Shown: one piece after another, positions 4,929 to 12,876 of the stretch | Layout of the letters: each line of letters begins with the position of its first letter | Position numbering within the stretch: position 1 is the stretch's first letter | NCBI GenBank assembly: GCA_021776595.1 | Contig: JAJFFP010000043.1 | Location: 1 to 64,000 of the forward strand | Source: Robiginitomaculum sp. | Lineage (GTDB): Bacteria; Pseudomonadota; Alphaproteobacteria; Caulobacterales; Maricaulaceae | Direction of reading: 5' to 3' | Length of the DNA: 64,000 bases | Program-made: the position numbers and the translations under genes | The notes under the pieces: model-generated | What the model was told of the DNA's origin: nothing | Seen by the model: only the letters and a program-made list of their open reading frames with translations | Database searches by the model: none

Positions 4929-5624
4929 ATGAAATATTTGTCCGTCATACAACATACTTCTGCAGAATATCTTGGCCTGATGGAGGACCATCTTGAAGGG
5001 CGAAAAATTCGTTTTAATTATGCGCGCCCGTTCACTGAAAAAGGCAAACCACCGAACATTAACACCATGGGAGACGGGCTGGTGCTGCTGGGCGGTGGGC
5101 CATGGGGCAGTGCAGGGGGGCGTGATGTGCCGACCCTGGCAGATGAAATCACCCTGACGCGGGCGGCCCTGATGACTGGCCTGCCAATACTGGCTTTTGG
5201 TTTGGGCGCGCAAATCCTGAGCATCGCCGCTGATGGTGGGGTAGAGTCAACGCCGCTGACATTTAAGGCTGGCTACGCACAGCGCACCGACGATACCGCC
5301 TTAAATGGCTACCTTCCCAAACGCTTTGCCCATGTGACTTATATGCGCGACCGTCCCTTGCCACCTGCCTATGCCAAAGTGTTGGCTGAGGATGAAGACG
5401 GGCATACGGCGATTTTTCAGATCGGTGAAAATGCACTCGGTTTTACCGGCCATCCGGGTTTCAAGCTGGCCATGGCCGAAGATCTGATTATGGAATTTGA
5501 AGAAGGGCCGGAAGACGATACCAAAGAGGCCTTTGCCAATCTGCGGGCCATGAAAACCGATATTGAAGATGCGCTGGTGCCGATCATGACCGGGGTGATT
5601 CAAATGACGGGCTGGATGCGGTAG
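4929..5624 (+). CDS. Class-I glutamine-amidotransferase-fold protein lacking the catalytic Cys
   Basis: The 231-aa product has the fold signatures of class-I GATase domains: a glycine loop LLGGGPWG, a nucleophile-elbow region near residues 86-95 (PILAFGLGAQ) and a late GHPG. In active enzymes the elbow reads G-x-C-x-G and the late motif is HPE. Here the Cys position is Gly91 and the Glu position is Gly177, so glutamine hydrolysis is not expected. Genes of this kind recur near sHdr and lipoate-assembly genes, so a structural or small-molecule binding role in LbpA maturation is possible, but unproven. ATG 4929 is chosen because the homologous fold begins there; the frame extends upstream only across the divergent promoter. 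Confidence 0.75.
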   Translation: MKYLSVIQHTSAEYLGLMEDHLEGRKIRFNYARPFTEKGKPPNINTMGDGLVLLGGGPWGSAGGRDVPTLADEITLTRAALMTGLPILAFGLGAQILSIAADGGVESTPLTFKAGYAQRTDDTALNGYLPKRFAHVTYMRDRPLPPAYAKVLAEDEDGHTAIFQIGENALGFTGHPGFKLAMAEDLIMEFEEGPEDDTKEAFANLRAMKTDIEDALVPIMTGVIQMTGWMR

Positions 5625-5714
5625 AACAATACCAAAGGTGTCATGACCCGGCTTGTTCGGGTGATACAGAATCTTACAAATCGACTGTCACACCAAAAAC
5701 ATGTAAAATGACGC

Positions 5715-5743
5715 TTGCATTCATTAGCACATTCTAATATTCT
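5715..5743 (+). promoter_or_regulatory. Candidate sigma-70 promoter for the dsrE3C-sHdr operon
   Basis: TTGCAT (5715-5720) and TATTCT (5738-5743) are separated by 17 bases. Transcription from here would start near 5750 and give an untranslated leader of about 90 bases that contains two hairpins. It is the best promoter-like pair between the amidotransferase-like gene and dsrE3C. Confidence 0.5.
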
Positions 5744-5754
5744 GTTTTTCAACG

Positions 5755-5830
5755 AGGCAAAGTGCCGCAGGGGAGTAGCCCCCGGAGCACCGCCCGCAAC
5801 AGATCGTGCAAATACGATCGCCGGAGGGAG
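5755..5830 (+). promoter_or_regulatory. Structured 5-prime leader of the sHdr operon (candidate cis-regulatory RNA)
   Basis: The leader folds by eye into two hairpins. The first pairs GTGC (5762-5765) with GCAC (5787-5790), has a symmetric 4x4 internal loop (CGCA and CGGA), then pairs GGGG (5770-5773) with CCCC (5779-5782) around a five-base loop. The second is a perfect 6-bp stem, GATCGT (5802-5807) with ACGATC (5814-5819), and ends just before the GGAGGG ribosome site at 5823-5828. This layout suits a translational switch. A conserved alphaproteobacterial motif named sul1 has been reported upstream of sulfur-metabolism genes; whether this is a member was not tested. Confidence 0.5.
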
Positions 5831-5838
5831 AAACAGGC

Positions 5839-6216
5839 ATGGCTGAAAAGCTGATGATTATTATGGCCAACACCGATCCACGCAATGGCGAGGAATTGGG
5901 TGCCCCGATATTTCAGGCTACCGTTGCGGCTGCTATGGAATATGAAGTGGAAGTGATTTGCACAGCGACTTCCGGACGCCTGATGAAAAAAGGTGAAGCC
6001 GAAAAAATGTTCGTCAAGGAAGGTTCACCCAAAAGCGTTTATTCATTTATCCAGGACGCCCATGAAGCCGGGGTTAAATTTTATTGCTGCTCGCCAAATC
6101 TCGACCTTTTTGATATGACTACAGATGATTTGATCCCGGAATGTGAGGGGATCGTCGGCGGGGCATACCTCATAGAAGAGGTTATGGAAGAAGATGTTAA
6201 AGTTCTGACCTACTAA
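5839..6216 (+). CDS. dsrE3C: DsrE-family sulfurtransferase, DsrE3C type
   Basis: 125 aa. Small DsrE/F-like cytoplasmic protein that carries persulfide sulfur, in sHdr organisms passing it between TusA-like donors and the sHdr complex. Two adjacent Cys at 83-84 (FYCCSPN) match the active-site pair reported for the DsrE3C subfamily. The ATG at 5839 follows GGAGGG with an ideal spacing; the frame is open eleven codons further upstream but that would place the start inside the leader hairpin. It opens the sHdr operon, 12 bases before hdrC1. A tusA gene, often next to dsrE3C in related loci, is absent here. Confidence 0.9.
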   Translation: MAEKLMIIMANTDPRNGEELGAPIFQATVAAAMEYEVEVICTATSGRLMKKGEAEKMFVKEGSPKSVYSFIQDAHEAGVKFYCCSPNLDLFDMTTDDLIPECEGIVGGAYLIEEVMEEDVKVLTY

Positions 6217-6228
6217 AAGGACGATCCG

Positions 6229-6978
6229 ATGTCTCATGCCGCCAGCACCCGCGTTCAGGAATTTATCGGCGACCCTTTTGAAAAGGAGTCGCCAGTATCG
6301 CAGGAAAAGCTGGAAGAGGTTTTTGGTGATATCCAATCGGATATGCGCTTTGACCATGAGTTAAATGGCTGTCTGAACTGTGGAATATGCACGGCTACCT
6401 GTCCGGCGGCCCATTATTACGATTTTAGCCCCCGCGAGATCGTCCAATTGTTATGGACGGAAAATCTGGATGGTATTTATGATGCCATGCAGGAAAAAAT
6501 CTGGGCCTGTGCCCAGTGTTATACCTGTGCGGCCCGGTGCCCGTTTGGCAATTCGCCCGGCGGCCTGATTATGATTATGCGTGAAACGGCTATCAAGCAT
6601 GGTATGGAAAGCGCCAAGAATGTGCTGCGCCCGTTCAGCCGCGTGATGCTAAAGCTGATTTCAACGGGAAATCAATTGTCTCCGGACATGATTAACCCCG
6701 AACACTTTGCCGACTGGGGACCGAACATTTCCAAGGTCGATGCACCGTTGAAGATTTTGCGTAAAGCCATTCCCATGGCAACCCTGAATACCACGGAAAC
6801 CGCTTGGGAGGTTAATTTGAAAACCTCGGTAGAACTTTACACCATCTGGGAAGAAACCGGGGTTCTGGACCAGTTGGAGACCGTGGATGAAAACCTGTTC
6901 GATGTGATCTTGGACATTATGGATGAGAAGCGCGAAGACTGGGCAGACTGGCAGGAAGAACAGGATGATGACGACTGA
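6229..6978 (+). CDS. hdrC1: sHdr iron-sulfur subunit HdrC1
   Basis: 249 aa with two 4Fe-4S ferredoxin motifs: CLNCGICTATCP near residue 46 and CAQCYTCAARCP near residue 92, both CX2CX2CX3CP. HdrC subunits relay electrons between the HdrB subunit and the flavoprotein HdrA. The C-terminal third is acidic and ends in EEQDDDD, without a membrane segment, so the protein is cytoplasmic. It is followed by hdrB1 after 26 bases with its own ribosome site (TAGGAG). Confidence 0.92.
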   Translation: MSHAASTRVQEFIGDPFEKESPVSQEKLEEVFGDIQSDMRFDHELNGCLNCGICTATCPAAHYYDFSPREIVQLLWTENLDGIYDAMQEKIWACAQCYTCAARCPFGNSPGGLIMIMRETAIKHGMESAKNVLRPFSRVMLKLISTGNQLSPDMINPEHFADWGPNISKVDAPLKILRKAIPMATLNTTETAWEVNLKTSVELYTIWEETGVLDQLETVDENLFDVILDIMDEKREDWADWQEEQDDDD

Positions 6979-7004
6979 TTATCATGCGAATTTAGGAGAA
7001 CACT

Positions 7005-8366
7005 ATGGCCACCAAAGATAACAATGAAGGCGAACGCTTTACCGGACATGGCTCGGAATGGCGAGACTCTGATCTAAGTCAGGAAGATGCCCTGGTCGCC
7101 ACGGCCTGGATTGAGCAAAAAATCAACAAGCGTTCCATGCTGACCAATAAAGACCGGGTCCATGACATTCGAGACGTCATGTGGGAACTGGAAAAAGACG
7201 GTGAAATTGTGGTGCACCGCGTTACTGATGAGCACGAGCCGGTCATGGCTAAAACCCTTTATGGCTGGGACAAAAAAATTCCCACCAACCAGCTTTGGCA
7301 CCATAAATCCTGCGGCCAATGTGGTAATATTCCAGGCTATCCTGCATCGCTTTTGTGGCTGATGAATATGATGGATATTCGCTACCTTGACGAAACCGAT
7401 CAGACTTCCTGCACTGCCTGGAATTATCATGGTTCCGGTATTGGCAATATAGTCAGCCTGGCCGCGGTGTTTTTGCGCAATTTCCATCAGGCCTATGTGT
7501 CGGCAAAGGCCGAAGGCAAGCCAGAGGGCTATTATTACCCGTTGGTGCATTGCGGCACCTCGTTTGGTAATTATAAGGAGGTGCGCGAATATTTGCTGCT
7601 TTCTTCCGAACTTCGCGAGCAGGTCAAAAAAATCCTGGGCAAGCTGGATCGTTTGATAGACGGCAAATTGTTGATCCCTGAAGAAGTGGTGCATTATTCA
7701 GAGTGGACCCATGTGATGCGCCATCGCATTAAAGAACATCAGGTGATTGATTGTTCCAATGTGCGCGCCACTATTCATCCGGCCTGCCATGTTTATAAAA
7801 TGGTGCCGCAGGATGTAGTTTATGATGATGATGTCTTAAACGGCGACCGGGTGGCGGTTTCCACCGGCGTTATAGAGGCCATGGGTGCACAGGTCATCGA
7901 CTATTCAACTTGGTATGATTGTTGTGGATTTGGCTTTCGCCACATTATTTCCGAACGCGAATTCACCCGTTCATTTGCCATTGACCGCAAAATCAAGGTG
8001 GCTGTGGAAGAAGCCCATTCTGATGTCATGATTGGTCATGATACCGGCTGTATTACCACATTGGACAAGAATCAGTGGATCGGTCAGGCCGAGGGTAAAA
8101 ATTACGATCTGCCGGTTTTGGCTGATGTGCAATTTGCAGCGCTGGTTTGCGGTGCGCACCCTTACAAAATAGTTCAATCGCACTGGCATGCCTCATCGAC
8201 CGAAAAACTGTTTGACAAACTGGGCATAGACTGGCGTGAAAAAAAGGTAGAATTTGAAGGCTATCTGAAACAGATCGAAGAAGGTGGAAAACAGGAAAAT
8301 CTGTATGATCCACGCCGGCGTATTACCGGTGGTCCTGGGTTTAAGAAACAAGAGCAAATCACATGA
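7005..8366 (+). CDS. hdrB1: sHdr catalytic-type subunit HdrB1 (CCG domains)
   Basis: 453 aa, longer than HdrB2. Cysteine-rich segments include KSCGQCG, ACHVYK, YDCCGFGF and GHDTGC, corresponding to CCG-domain cluster ligands; in methanogen HdrB such ligands hold noncubane 4Fe-4S clusters where the disulfide is reduced. The first CCG set is degenerate (no CCG tripeptide), which is typical of the B1 paralogue of sHdr and suggests that B1 and B2 differ in function. The stop overlaps the hdrA start (ATGA), indicating coupled translation. Confidence 0.92.
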   Translation: MATKDNNEGERFTGHGSEWRDSDLSQEDALVATAWIEQKINKRSMLTNKDRVHDIRDVMWELEKDGEIVVHRVTDEHEPVMAKTLYGWDKKIPTNQLWHHKSCGQCGNIPGYPASLLWLMNMMDIRYLDETDQTSCTAWNYHGSGIGNIVSLAAVFLRNFHQAYVSAKAEGKPEGYYYPLVHCGTSFGNYKEVREYLLLSSELREQVKKILGKLDRLIDGKLLIPEEVVHYSEWTHVMRHRIKEHQVIDCSNVRATIHPACHVYKMVPQDVVYDDDVLNGDRVAVSTGVIEAMGAQVIDYSTWYDCCGFGFRHIISEREFTRSFAIDRKIKVAVEEAHSDVMIGHDTGCITTLDKNQWIGQAEGKNYDLPVLADVQFAALVCGAHPYKIVQSHWHASSTEKLFDKLGIDWREKKVEFEGYLKQIEEGGKQENLYDPRRRITGGPGFKKQEQIT

Positions 8367-9415
8367 GCACAAAACCTGTATTGATTGTTGGCGGCGGCCC
8401 GGCCGGGCTGGCCGCTGCGCACTCACTGGCCAGTGTTGGCCAAAAATGTATTATTGTTGAGAAAAAAGACAGTCTTGGCGGCACACCCATTCATTCTGGC
8501 TATGCCAAGCTGGTGCCTTCTGGTGAGTGGGCCAAAGATGCCATTGGCGGCATGGTTGACCGGGTGACGGGCAATAAGCTGATTACCATAAAAACGGGCA
8601 ACACAGTAAAAGAATTTACCGGCAAGCCGGGCAATTTCTCGGTGAAATACTCGGAAGGCAAAGGCAATAGTGTTTCAGCAGCGGTATTGTGCACGGGCTT
8701 TACTCATTTTGACAGCATCAATAAACCGGAATGGGGCTTTGGCACTTTTCCTGATGTAGTGACGACAACACAGGTGGAGCAAATGATTTCTTCGGGGCAG
8801 GGGGTGCGCCGCCCGTCCAACGGGGAAAAGCCCAAACGGGTTGCGATTTTACTGTGCGTTGGTTCCCGTGATCGCCAGATCGGTCGTGAATGGTGCTCGA
8901 AAATCTGCTGTTCCGTGTCGGCCAACCTGGCCATGGAAATTCGCGAAGAACTGCCAGACTGTCACGTCTATGTCTATTATATGGACATTCGAACCTATGG
9001 CCTTCTGGAAACCAAATATTACTGGAGAAGCCAGGAAGAATTCAAAGTCAAATATATCAAGGCCCGTATTGCCGAGGTTACGTCTGATGGTGACAAGGTG
9101 ATCGTTAAAGGCGAGGATACGCTGGTGAAGCGCCCGATCACCATCCCCTTTGATATGGTGGTTCACGCCATCGGTATGGATCCCAATGTGGATAATATGC
9201 TGCTGTCTTCCATTTTTGACGTCAATCTGGAGCCAAACGGCTTTATTGATCGCCAAAACTCATATGGTGGCATGGGCGCCAGTTCCCGCGAGGGCGTATT
9301 TGTCGCCGGTTCAGCCACCGGGCCTGAAACCATTGATGATTCCATTGCCCAGGGACAGGCGGCCGCCTTTAGCGCGCTCGCCATAGCAAATTCTCAACTG
9401 GCCGCTGCGGAGTAA
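8363..9415 (+). CDS. hdrA: sHdr flavoprotein subunit HdrA
   Basis: 350 aa. N-terminal FAD motif VGGGPAGLAAAHSLASVG, a mid-protein Cys cluster (CVGSRDRQ and WCSKICC) that binds a 4Fe-4S centre in this family, and a C-terminal FAD motif near GVFVAGSATGPETIDDSI. The protein is much shorter than methanogen HdrA and lacks its extra ferredoxin domains, as expected of the sulfur-oxidising type, where electrons flow from the sulfur substrate to the flavin. The electron acceptor is not known from this sequence. Confidence 0.93.
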   Translation: MSTKPVLIVGGGPAGLAAAHSLASVGQKCIIVEKKDSLGGTPIHSGYAKLVPSGEWAKDAIGGMVDRVTGNKLITIKTGNTVKEFTGKPGNFSVKYSEGKGNSVSAAVLCTGFTHFDSINKPEWGFGTFPDVVTTTQVEQMISSGQGVRRPSNGEKPKRVAILLCVGSRDRQIGREWCSKICCSVSANLAMEIREELPDCHVYVYYMDIRTYGLLETKYYWRSQEEFKVKYIKARIAEVTSDGDKVIVKGEDTLVKRPITIPFDMVVHAIGMDPNVDNMLLSSIFDVNLEPNGFIDRQNSYGGMGASSREGVFVAGSATGPETIDDSIAQGQAAAFSALAIANSQLAAAE

Positions 9416-9423
9416 TTGAACCC

Positions 9424-10302
9424 ATGCTATCCTTTTTTAACATCTCAAAAAAGGATGCTGCGGCAGCAGCCAAAGAAGCGCGCCCGCAATTGGAAATCTC
9501 CGGCCCGGTTCTGCAACAAGCCCTGCGACAGGTGATCGTCGGGTGCGAGCCATTGGGCGGTATAGAGCGCTATGTCGCGGCACTGAATCTAAAATCCACC
9601 CTGTTTCAAGAAGCACTTCTCAATGATGCAATAGACGCCATGACAGCCGAAACCTTTAGCGGTCTTTGCGTATTCATGTCTACGGTGCGCCGCCGTATTG
9701 CGCCTTATCTTGATGGCGAAGCCTTTGTGGCTCTGAAAAACGCTGTGCAAACATTGTTGGACGATCGCAAAGGCACTGCCAGTATTGATGCTCGCCTTGC
9801 CGTCTTTTGCGCTGCATTCCCCCAGGATAAAAAACACCGCTGGGTGCGCGATCTGGGGGCGGAAATTCTGCACAATGTGGACCCGGAGCGCTATCCCCTG
9901 ATGACCCGATGGATGTGGGATGTCAAAGCCAATACCGGTGTATTGCGTGAAATCTGGTTTGATGACCAGATCGATCACATATCCCTTGCGGTTCCTGATA
10001 CTTATCTGACCTTCATTACCTTGCGTGAGGAACTCAGCCAGTATCTGACTGAAAATGGTATATTCCGCGACATATTGGGCTATATCGATCTATTATGTGC
10101 GCAAATTTATGCCGATTATATCTGTGCCCAAGGCGGTTCTTATTTACGCACAGATTTTTCCTCTCCCCAGGACCCGATGGAATACACGCGCAGGCTATTG
10201 GGCCTGGATGGGGTAAAAGCGCAAAGCAACAAAACCCGGCTTAAATCCATTGATGGCACCGCTTTTGTCCTTGATGATGCCGACCTTCTGCAACAAAACT
10301 GA
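9424..10302 (+). CDS. Conserved sHdr-locus protein between HdrA and HdrC2 (Hyp)
   Basis: 292 aa, soluble, with an acidic and aromatic-rich C-terminal half and no recognised catalytic motif or Cys cluster. A protein of this kind is nearly always encoded between hdrA and hdrC2 in sHdr operons and is thought to belong to the complex. Its biochemical role is not established. Spacing of 8 bases on each side shows that it is part of the operon. The N-terminal 20 residues (KKDAAAAAKEARPQ) are low complexity and probably flexible. Confidence 0.8.
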   Translation: MLSFFNISKKDAAAAAKEARPQLEISGPVLQQALRQVIVGCEPLGGIERYVAALNLKSTLFQEALLNDAIDAMTAETFSGLCVFMSTVRRRIAPYLDGEAFVALKNAVQTLLDDRKGTASIDARLAVFCAAFPQDKKHRWVRDLGAEILHNVDPERYPLMTRWMWDVKANTGVLREIWFDDQIDHISLAVPDTYLTFITLREELSQYLTENGIFRDILGYIDLLCAQIYADYICAQGGSYLRTDFSSPQDPMEYTRRLLGLDGVKAQSNKTRLKSIDGTAFVLDDADLLQQN

Positions 10303-10310
10303 GCACCTTT

Positions 10311-11051
10311 ATGGCAATTCATGAAAAACATCTGATCCGTCCGGAAAACATTAAAACCCATGACAATCTGGTCATTGACGGGGTTGATGTTTCGGGACAT
10401 TGGAGCACGTTTATCGAAACCCGCGTGGTGACGGATTATAACGAGCAATTACAGGATGAAATCGCAGCCTTGCCAGGCGGGGAATACATTCACCGGTGCT
10501 GGCAATGTGGCTCATGCACCAATTCCTGCACGGTTAATGCCATCAATCCAGACTTTAATCCACGCTACTGGATTTATTTGATCCGGGTAGGCATGGAGTC
10601 GGAGTTGTTACGCGATAAGGAAATTATCTGGCAATGCGTATCGTGCAATAAATGCACCTATGCCTGCCCGCGTGATGTGGTGCCCGAAGGGGTCATGAAA
10701 GCCACGGCCCATTGGCTGGAAATGAAGGGGCACACGGCGCCGTCCAACTCCACAATTTTCGACGAGGAATTCACCCGCCAGGTCGTGCAAACCGGAAAGA
10801 TTGAAGATGGCCGGATTTTGATGAATTTCCTGAAAAACTCCAAACAGCCATTATTTCAGGACTGGTTGATCCAGATGGTCAAACAAATGCTCTGGCATTT
10901 GCCGATCAAATATCTGATGGGCATGGGTCTGGCCACCTTATTTCAGCCAAAAACCAAAAGCTGGGGCAAAGCCCGCGCCGCCATTGAAGAACATATTGCC
11001 GAGGAAAAGGCCGCCGAACGTGCGGCCCTTGGTCTTGATGCTGCCGAATAA
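10311..11051 (+). CDS. hdrC2: sHdr iron-sulfur subunit HdrC2
   Basis: 246 aa with two 4Fe-4S motifs, CWQCGSCTNSC near residue 63 and CVSCNKCTYACP near residue 108. The spacing and the following GHT region resemble HdrC proteins that partner CCG-domain HdrB proteins. A hydrophobic patch (MLWHLPIKYLMGMGLATLF) precedes a charged C-terminus; it is short of a clear transmembrane helix but could mediate membrane or partner contact. The gene precedes hdrB2 by 11 bases. Confidence 0.92.
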   Translation: MAIHEKHLIRPENIKTHDNLVIDGVDVSGHWSTFIETRVVTDYNEQLQDEIAALPGGEYIHRCWQCGSCTNSCTVNAINPDFNPRYWIYLIRVGMESELLRDKEIIWQCVSCNKCTYACPRDVVPEGVMKATAHWLEMKGHTAPSNSTIFDEEFTRQVVQTGKIEDGRILMNFLKNSKQPLFQDWLIQMVKQMLWHLPIKYLMGMGLATLFQPKTKSWGKARAAIEEHIAEEKAAERAALGLDAAE

Positions 11052-11062
11052 GGGAAATTGTT

Positions 11063-11998
11063 ATGCCGGACCGTAAAGAGAAATACAAAAAAGTTGCCTA
11101 TTACCACGGCTGTGCGCTGGAAGGGACGGCGCAGCCCTATAACACATCCACTCGTGCGATTGCAAAAAAGCTGGATCTGGAACTTGTGGACATCAAGAAC
11201 TGGAATTGTTGCGGGGCGATGGAAGTTAAAAACGTCGATCCGGAAATTCAGACCTACCTTTCTTCGCGCGTGATGTCCCTTGCCCATAACAATATGGGCC
11301 AGGATGTGGTGATGGCGCCATGTAACGGGTGTTACCACAACCTGAAAAAGGCTGAATACGATATTTCCCATAAGGAAAAGTCCCGCGAAGTGGTCGAGAA
11401 AATTTCGGCAAAGGCTGATCATCCAGCCTATGAAGCCGGTCAGGTGGAAACCATTCATGCGCTGGACTGGATCAAATATGGCTATGGTGAGGACGAACTG
11501 AAAGCCAAGATCAAAGGCGGTCTTAAAGGATTGAAAGTTGCCAACTATTACGGCTGTATGTATACGCGCCCGCGCCATATTTTTCCCGAAAAAGATCAGG
11601 GCGGTGATAGCGAGAGCACTTCAAAGCCACATTATATGGATGACCTGTTGGCCATTGCCGGTGCGGAAAATGTAGAATTTCCGCTCAAAACCGCCTGTTG
11701 TGGTGGTGCGCATACGTTGTCGGACTCGGATACCTCGACCAGACTGGTTCTGAATATATTACTGGCCGCTGAGGCGGCTGGCGCCGAGGTCATCGCCACA
11801 GAGTGCCCGACCTGTCATAGCGGACTGGAGATGCACCAGATACGGGCCCTGAAACGCATGTCAGCAGAAACCAATGTCAAAGTGGTTTATTTTACGCAAT
11901 TACTGGGCTTGGCCCTCGGCCTAAGTCCACGTAAAGTCGGCATTCATGAAAATGTTTCCAATTCAATTCCGTTGTTAAAAGAAAAGAAAATCGCATGA
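11063..11998 (+). CDS. hdrB2: sHdr catalytic-type subunit HdrB2 (two CCG domains)
   Basis: 311 aa with two complete CCG domains: YHGCALEG, NWNCCGAMEV and PCNGCYHN in the first; YYGCMY, TACCGGAH and ECPTCHSG in the second. In methanogen HdrB each such domain binds a noncubane 4Fe-4S cluster at the disulfide site, so B2 is the likely site for sulfur chemistry on LbpA or another carrier. The last codons overlap the next gene in an ATGA junction. Confidence 0.93.
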   Translation: MPDRKEKYKKVAYYHGCALEGTAQPYNTSTRAIAKKLDLELVDIKNWNCCGAMEVKNVDPEIQTYLSSRVMSLAHNNMGQDVVMAPCNGCYHNLKKAEYDISHKEKSREVVEKISAKADHPAYEAGQVETIHALDWIKYGYGEDELKAKIKGGLKGLKVANYYGCMYTRPRHIFPEKDQGGDSESTSKPHYMDDLLAIAGAENVEFPLKTACCGGAHTLSDSDTSTRLVLNILLAAEAAGAEVIATECPTCHSGLEMHQIRALKRMSAETNVKVVYFTQLLGLALGLSPRKVGIHENVSNSIPLLKEKKIA

Positions 11999-12417
11999 GG
12001 AGTGTTGCTGACATAGGCAAGGCACTGGATTCTCCATTGCCAGAGGATGATCCGGTGGCAGCAGCGATATTTTTGTTAAATTCCGGAGAGGAAATACTCG
12101 AACACTGGTTGCTGGCCCATGACAAAACGCCATTAGATACCTTAAAAGAAGGGTTTCGTATTCTGGCTTTACACCGTCAGGGTGCCAAGGGAGATCCCAG
12201 TTTCAATGCCTGCCGTGAAACCACACGCGAACTGGTTTATCATTATAACCTGATCAAGTTGGACCCGGATCATGAAGATACGATAAAGCGACTGGCGATG
12301 ATGCGGCTCATTTCCAATCACCTCTTTTTGTTTGTCAGCGGCAAAATGGAAGTTGCCGGATTAGGAGAGTTTTGTTGCTCTTCCAAACCGATACGGCTAA
12401 ATTCTGCTTACCAATAA
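11995..12417 (+). CDS. Unknown 140-aa protein encoded between hdrB2 and lbpA
   Basis: Not recognised. The 140-aa product is largely helical by composition, with a central segment rich in His, Arg and Tyr (CRETTRELVYHYNLI) and a Cys pair near the C-terminus (EFCCSSKP). There is no signal peptide or transmembrane segment. The start overlaps the hdrB2 stop in ATGA, and lbpA follows after 21 bases, so it is translated as part of the sHdr operon. The paired Cys next to a lipoate-carrier gene make a sulfur- or metal-binding accessory role conceivable, but this is inference only. Confidence 0.75.
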   Translation: MRSVADIGKALDSPLPEDDPVAAAIFLLNSGEEILEHWLLAHDKTPLDTLKEGFRILALHRQGAKGDPSFNACRETTRELVYHYNLIKLDPDHEDTIKRLAMMRLISNHLFLFVSGKMEVAGLGEFCCSSKPIRLNSAYQ

Positions 12418-12438
12418 AATAATACAAGGAACCTTATC

Positions 12439-12876
12439 ATGCCAGACGTTCGCGGTTGTCATTTTCCCGAAGACCTTCTTTATGATGTGGGCAACCACAT
12501 TTGGGTAAAAGAAGAAGGTGACGGAAGAATAAAGCTGGGCATGACATCGGTGGCTACGGCCATGGCAGGGCAATTAGTGGCTTTTACACCCAAAAAAGTT
12601 GGCCGCAAAGTAAAGGCTGGTCGTTCCTGTGCCACTGTTGAATCTGGTAAATGGGTCGGGCCGGCCAAGTCTTTGGCAGGCGGCGAGGTGCTGGCCTCAA
12701 ATGATGCGCTTGTGGCCAAACCTGATCTGGCCAATGAAGACCCATATGCCAACTGGATGGTGGAAATTCAGGCCGAGGACTGGGACAACATTAAAGGCAA
12801 TTATGTTTCCGGTGCTGATGTCGCCGCGCCATATGAAGCAAAAATGGAAGCCGATGGCTTTGCCGGTTGCGAATAA
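12439..12876 (+). CDS. lbpA: Lipoate-binding protein LbpA (GcvH-like)
   Basis: 145 aa, GcvH-like barrel. The lipoylated lysine is predicted as Lys71 in VESGKWVGP, with the preceding Glu-Ser-Gly conserved as in H-proteins. No glycine-cleavage genes are nearby, whereas the sHdr genes and a dedicated lipoate-assembly set are, so it is the sulfur-oxidation carrier rather than GcvH. Known role: lipoyl-bound sulfur intermediates are presented to sHdr. AAGGAA forms a ribosome site before the ATG. It is the last gene of the operon; no obvious terminator was found after it. Confidence 0.93.
   Translation: MPDVRGCHFPEDLLYDVGNHIWVKEEGDGRIKLGMTSVATAMAGQLVAFTPKKVGRKVKAGRSCATVESGKWVGPAKSLAGGEVLASNDALVAKPDLANEDPYANWMVEIQAEDWDNIKGNYVSGADVAAPYEAKMEADGFAGCE

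Follow-up and report, generated by a model that had tools for sequence, protein, structure and literature searches.

The dsrE-headed gene set of a 'Robiginitomaculum'-like alphaproteobacterium is preceded by a conserved leader that folds into two hairpins, and we moderately favour reading it as a structured 5'UTR of the dsrE-sHdr-lbpA mRNA, peculiar to this lineage, which would act in cis on translation initiation or mRNA life after derepression. The sHdr pathway is a cytoplasmic sulfur oxidation route found in many bacteria. In the window (the whole 64,000-nucleotide stretch of DNA analysed; the features described in it lie on its forward strand), the first gene of the operon encodes a DsrE-family sulfur carrier (5839–6216; Pfam DrsE_2 and DsrE). 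It is followed at 6229–12876 by open reading frames which Pfam and NCBIfam assign, in order, to HdrC1, HdrB1, HdrA, an unknown protein, HdrC2, HdrB2, a small unknown protein and the GcvH-like LbpA; the set is an sHdr sulfur-oxidation operon. The nearest relatives of the source genome are MAGs labelled Robiginitomaculum.

The leader is a noncoding structured 5'UTR of ~88 nt when counted from the putative start site (5751–5838), most of it made up by the two hairpins; a covariance model built from seven leaders (CM R1) matches it before dsrE. It contains the Shine-Dalgarno sequence GGAGGGAG (5823–5830), in which AGGGAG is invariant across 15 genus members. No conserved reading frame crosses the leader in the orthologues. 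An N-terminal extension of dsrE from a GTG at 5806 was considered and rejected: it is unconserved, with indels and stops in orthologues, and is unlikely because one orthologue (L088, an open frame of 126 aa) has an in-frame stop immediately 5' of the start.

Fold of the leader

Folding and alignment together place hairpin 1 at 5753–5796. Its basal stem, CG.GGC (5753–5758) with GCCCG (5792–5796), was absent from the original prediction; above it come an AAA/C loop, a middle stem of GUGC (5762–5765) with GCAC (5787–5790), a symmetric 4×4 internal loop (CGCA/CGGA) and a top stem of GGGG (5770–5773) with CCCC (5779–5782). Hairpin 2 (5802–5819), which is formed by standard pairs in 10 genus leaders, joins GAUCGU (5802–5807) to ACGAUC (5814–5819) across an A-rich loop through six Watson-Crick pairs, with a G-U pair possible in addition. 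The two-hairpin leader that had been proposed from the sequence is confirmed by this folding, which returns the symmetric internal loop, the GGGG/CCCC top and the 6-bp second stem. The description of hairpin 2 as a perfect 6-bp stem abutting GGAGGG (5823–5828) was right as to the stem but not as to the abutment, since 3 nt and not 0 separate the two.

The excess of structure over chance in this single sequence is modest. The segment 5740–5845 folds with z = −1.8, and 9 of 200 shuffles fold equally well or better; folding from the inferred start site gives z of −2.0 to −2.2. Among 36 matched upstream regions of the window, the leader is the most stable.

Partition-function folding also brings out the strand CGCCC (5791–5795) as a candidate switch strand with two alternative partners, GAGGC in the basal stem of hairpin 1 and GGGAG within the Shine-Dalgarno sequence. 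A pairing of CCGCCC with GGAGGG is out of register and was discarded, the workable form being CGCCC with GGGAG. When the leader is folded with 12 nt of coding sequence, the predicted ensemble leaves most of the Shine-Dalgarno open, and forcing CGCCC onto it lies ~2.4 kcal/mol over the MFE in the source sequence. Extending the coding part to 45 to 60 nt raises the probability of the CGCCC–Shine-Dalgarno pairing in most close relatives. Comparison with shuffled leaders gave no difference in exposure or occlusion of the Shine-Dalgarno. On these folding models, a two-state CGCCC switch is possible as a hypothesis.

Conservation and covariation within the genus

CM R1 finds the leader in 7 of 18 genus genomes (the source and 6 further), one copy in each and only ahead of dsrE; two further, weaker matches in the genus sit at this same position. 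A sample of 398 genomes of the order gave no credible copy outside the genus; matches in two genomes (G559 and G007) were set aside, being near threshold and having flanks that, as far as they were read, show no gene-start context. Across the seven genomes, identity is 0.76 in the leader, compared with 0.49 at four-fold sites of dsrE and 0.56 in the DNA upstream of the promoter, and GCCC is invariant in the seven leaders.

Pairing is conserved together with sequence. Four leader pairs are altered on both sides, a number that none of 500 shuffles reaches; these double changes are few, the compared sequences are closely related, and the model-fitted alignment behind the count favours the structure. 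Hairpin 1 shows a double change from G-C to A-U in one leader (L014). In hairpin 2, pairs changed on both sides number four in the hand alignment and three in the model alignment. The hand alignment has this hairpin paired throughout in 10 of 15 genus leaders, with pair 3 occurring as UA, UG or CG and pair 6 as four pair types; for the repeated presence of a stem ahead of the Shine-Dalgarno, Fisher p is ~1e-4 when related sequences are counted as independent. These alignments suggest that hairpin 2 is the best-supported part of the leader. The leader passed the search for compensatory changes by which the original prediction was to be checked, with four pairs double-changed and hairpin 2 kept in ten. 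Mean folding z is −1.41 for genus leaders versus −0.67 for other taxa, and the individual z of several orthologous leaders is near zero.

The leader also turns over within the genus. Five of the 15 members (L013, L016, L022, L033 and L061) have leaders of other sequence, some of them with no hairpin near the Shine-Dalgarno; in L024 hairpin 1 is reduced to a bare stem, and L105, from another genus of the same family, has a short leader. Such turnover argues mainly for a folded 5' structure and spacing, and not for a strictly conserved aptamer. As a separate observation, the sister leaders L022 and L033, upstream of dsrE, have a common outer GACG/CGUC stem enclosing wholly different interiors. 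Judged from these comparisons, the leader is probably real, lineage-restricted and functional at the RNA level. The earlier suggestion of RNA-borne control of the sulfur operon survives to this extent: the leader is conserved, probably at the RNA level, and sited where translation could be affected.

Promoter and candidate operator

Conservation upstream of the leader points to a promoter at 5715–5743, consisting of TTGCAT (5715–5720) and TATTCT (5738–5743) separated by 17 nt, from which transcription would start near A5751. This putative promoter is 92% identical in 7 genomes and its pattern is retained in 15 of 15 genus members; it went unreported in a simple sigma-70 scan, the first hexamer scoring 3/6. 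Its spacer contains the inverted repeat ATTAG-N6-CTAAT (5723–5738), a candidate operator for a persulfide-sensing ArsR repressor of the BigR/SqrR/SoxR/sHdrR type. Similar palindromes are shared by Alpha-, Beta- and Gammaproteobacteria, upstream of dsrE in their sHdr operons, and occur there in many Gamma- and Betaproteobacteria. In its extended form the palindrome is perfect at two sites in the genome, one of which is 5723–5739, and a copy with one mismatch, ATGAGTAGTCGCTAATA, lies just before a BigR/SqrR-like gene on contig C23. One-mismatch copies are no commoner in the genome than a reversed control pattern, so the link between the palindrome and a BigR/SqrR-like repressor rests on context. 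In Hyphomicrobium denitrificans, five probes from the sulfur-oxidation region, among them one covering the sequence 5' of dsrE3C, were offered to SoxR, which bound four of them (PMC10451225). By analogy with these regulators, the sulfur switch is likely to be transcriptional, with a persulfide-sensing ArsR repressor acting on the palindrome. The visible sulfur-linked control element is this promoter palindrome, which falls outside the segment singled out by the original prediction.

Several further observations were made around these sites. The BigR/SqrR-like gene (L156; G000:C23:53914-54051), the only one found in the genome, codes for an ArsR repressor with two cysteines and is divergent from genes for a Blh-like persulfide dioxygenase and a sulfur transferase. 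The only other perfect operator-like palindrome (L137; G000:C63:40536-40568) has another, imperfect palindrome after it; the protein encoded downstream has a signal-peptide-like start and no Pfam match, and the leader of its gene likewise has two small hairpins before GGGGAAG. Alignment of the 15 genus promoters shows a further inverted repeat, ACACC-A5-(GG/CA)TGT (5690–5704), which lies just 5' of the −35 hexamer and is kept in several of the closest relatives. This element is possibly a second protein-binding site, for an activator or a repressor.

Competing readings and known systems

In the reading that we favour, transcription would probably be controlled through the promoter palindrome by a persulfide-sensing repressor of the ArsR type, and the mRNA would open with two hairpins followed by a largely exposed Shine-Dalgarno. 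The leader would then act in cis, most likely on how translation is initiated and how long the mRNA lasts: hairpin 1 would guard the 5' end, hairpin 2 would keep the sequence ahead of the Shine-Dalgarno paired with itself, and CGCCC of hairpin 1, if released, could occlude the Shine-Dalgarno. Any effect on expression, and the direction of such an effect, would be a prediction of this scheme.

We regard it as unlikely, although deserving of serious consideration, that the leader is a true sensor, whether a small riboswitch or a site bound by a regulatory protein, in which the conserved GAGGCAAAGUGCCGCA...GAGCACCGCCC core would bind a sulfur-related signal or a protein and make CGCCC change partner between hairpin 1 and the Shine-Dalgarno. 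Unpaired core positions (AAA, C.CA) are about as well conserved as the stems, and the mutually exclusive CGCCC pairings lie a few kcal/mol apart in most close leaders, both of which speak for a sensor; but the leader is known from one genus and before one operon only, only a bare stem is left of hairpin 1 in L024 and other leaders have replaced it, occlusion of the Shine-Dalgarno is not above that of shuffles, and the promoter palindrome seems to offer transcriptional sensing already. A conserved ligand-binding core whose stems covary across diverse taxa is a criterion for riboswitches, and the covarying stems here are seen within one genus only.

We also think it improbable that the leader has no RNA-level function and is a GC-rich spacer with a chance fold, kept by recent descent or by DNA-level sites. 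A single-sequence z of only about −2, the near-zero z of several orthologues and the unrelated leaders in five genus members are all consistent with this; against it stand the leader identity, well above that of four-fold sites, the compensatory changes, matched by none of the 500 shuffles, and stems that vary while their pairing persists, the opposite of how a DNA-binding site behaves. Hairpin 2 was rejected as a second DNA operator on the same ground, its stem sequence varying among species while the pairing stays.

Quite doubtful is a new small translational riboregulator of sulfur oxidation, in which a sulfur-related signal or a protein bound at hairpin 1 would set CGCCC either on GAGGC (open) or on the Shine-Dalgarno (closed); if it were true, the sHdr operon would have a second, RNA-level control under the ArsR repressor. 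A transcription attenuator was rejected for want of a U run, as the region 5600–5900 contains no terminator-like site (hairpin plus U run). No Rfam 15 family reached its gathering score in the window or in the orthologous leaders, matches below it being at chance level only, and none, including the weak ones, is credible.

Membership of the published sul1 family (RF03058), the class put forward for this leader at the outset, is ruled out by model search and gene context, and we give it almost no weight. Covariance-model searches with RF03058 gave no match in the leader segment at E≤10 and none in the source genome or the genus leaders. With the gathering score of 36.2 bits as the cut-off for membership, RF03058 is found in 8 of the 385 alphaproteobacterial genomes searched; at 7 of these 8 loci the downstream frame reads by eye as a SulP permease, two of them having been checked with Pfam. 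The leader resembles sul1 in being a short two-stem RNA of an alphaproteobacterium, 5' of a sulfur-related gene, but the sul1 consensus, UCCGGCGG...GGCCGGA-AGAGCCACCCGG..., is unlike the leader sequence, and genuine sul1 RNAs precede genes for SulP sulfate permeases whereas the leader described here precedes a dsrE-sHdr operon.

The papers searched describe transcriptional regulation of the sHdr pathway; with a conserved leader, RNA-level control of this operon would be hinted at for the first time. The leader would also be a clean case in which to test how quickly a genus acquires and discards such elements. For the present it adds one to the small candidate leaders of restricted lineage. The promoters of the BigR/SqrR/SoxR/sHdrR systems resemble the present one in general layout, an A/T-rich palindrome within a promoter for sulfur-oxidation genes; their control is exerted on the DNA, upstream of the leader, and leaves the hairpins unexplained. 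For the hairpins, a parallel in layout is offered by 5'UTR stabilisers such as the E. coli ompA leader, in which an open ribosome site comes after hairpins close to the 5' end of the mRNA.
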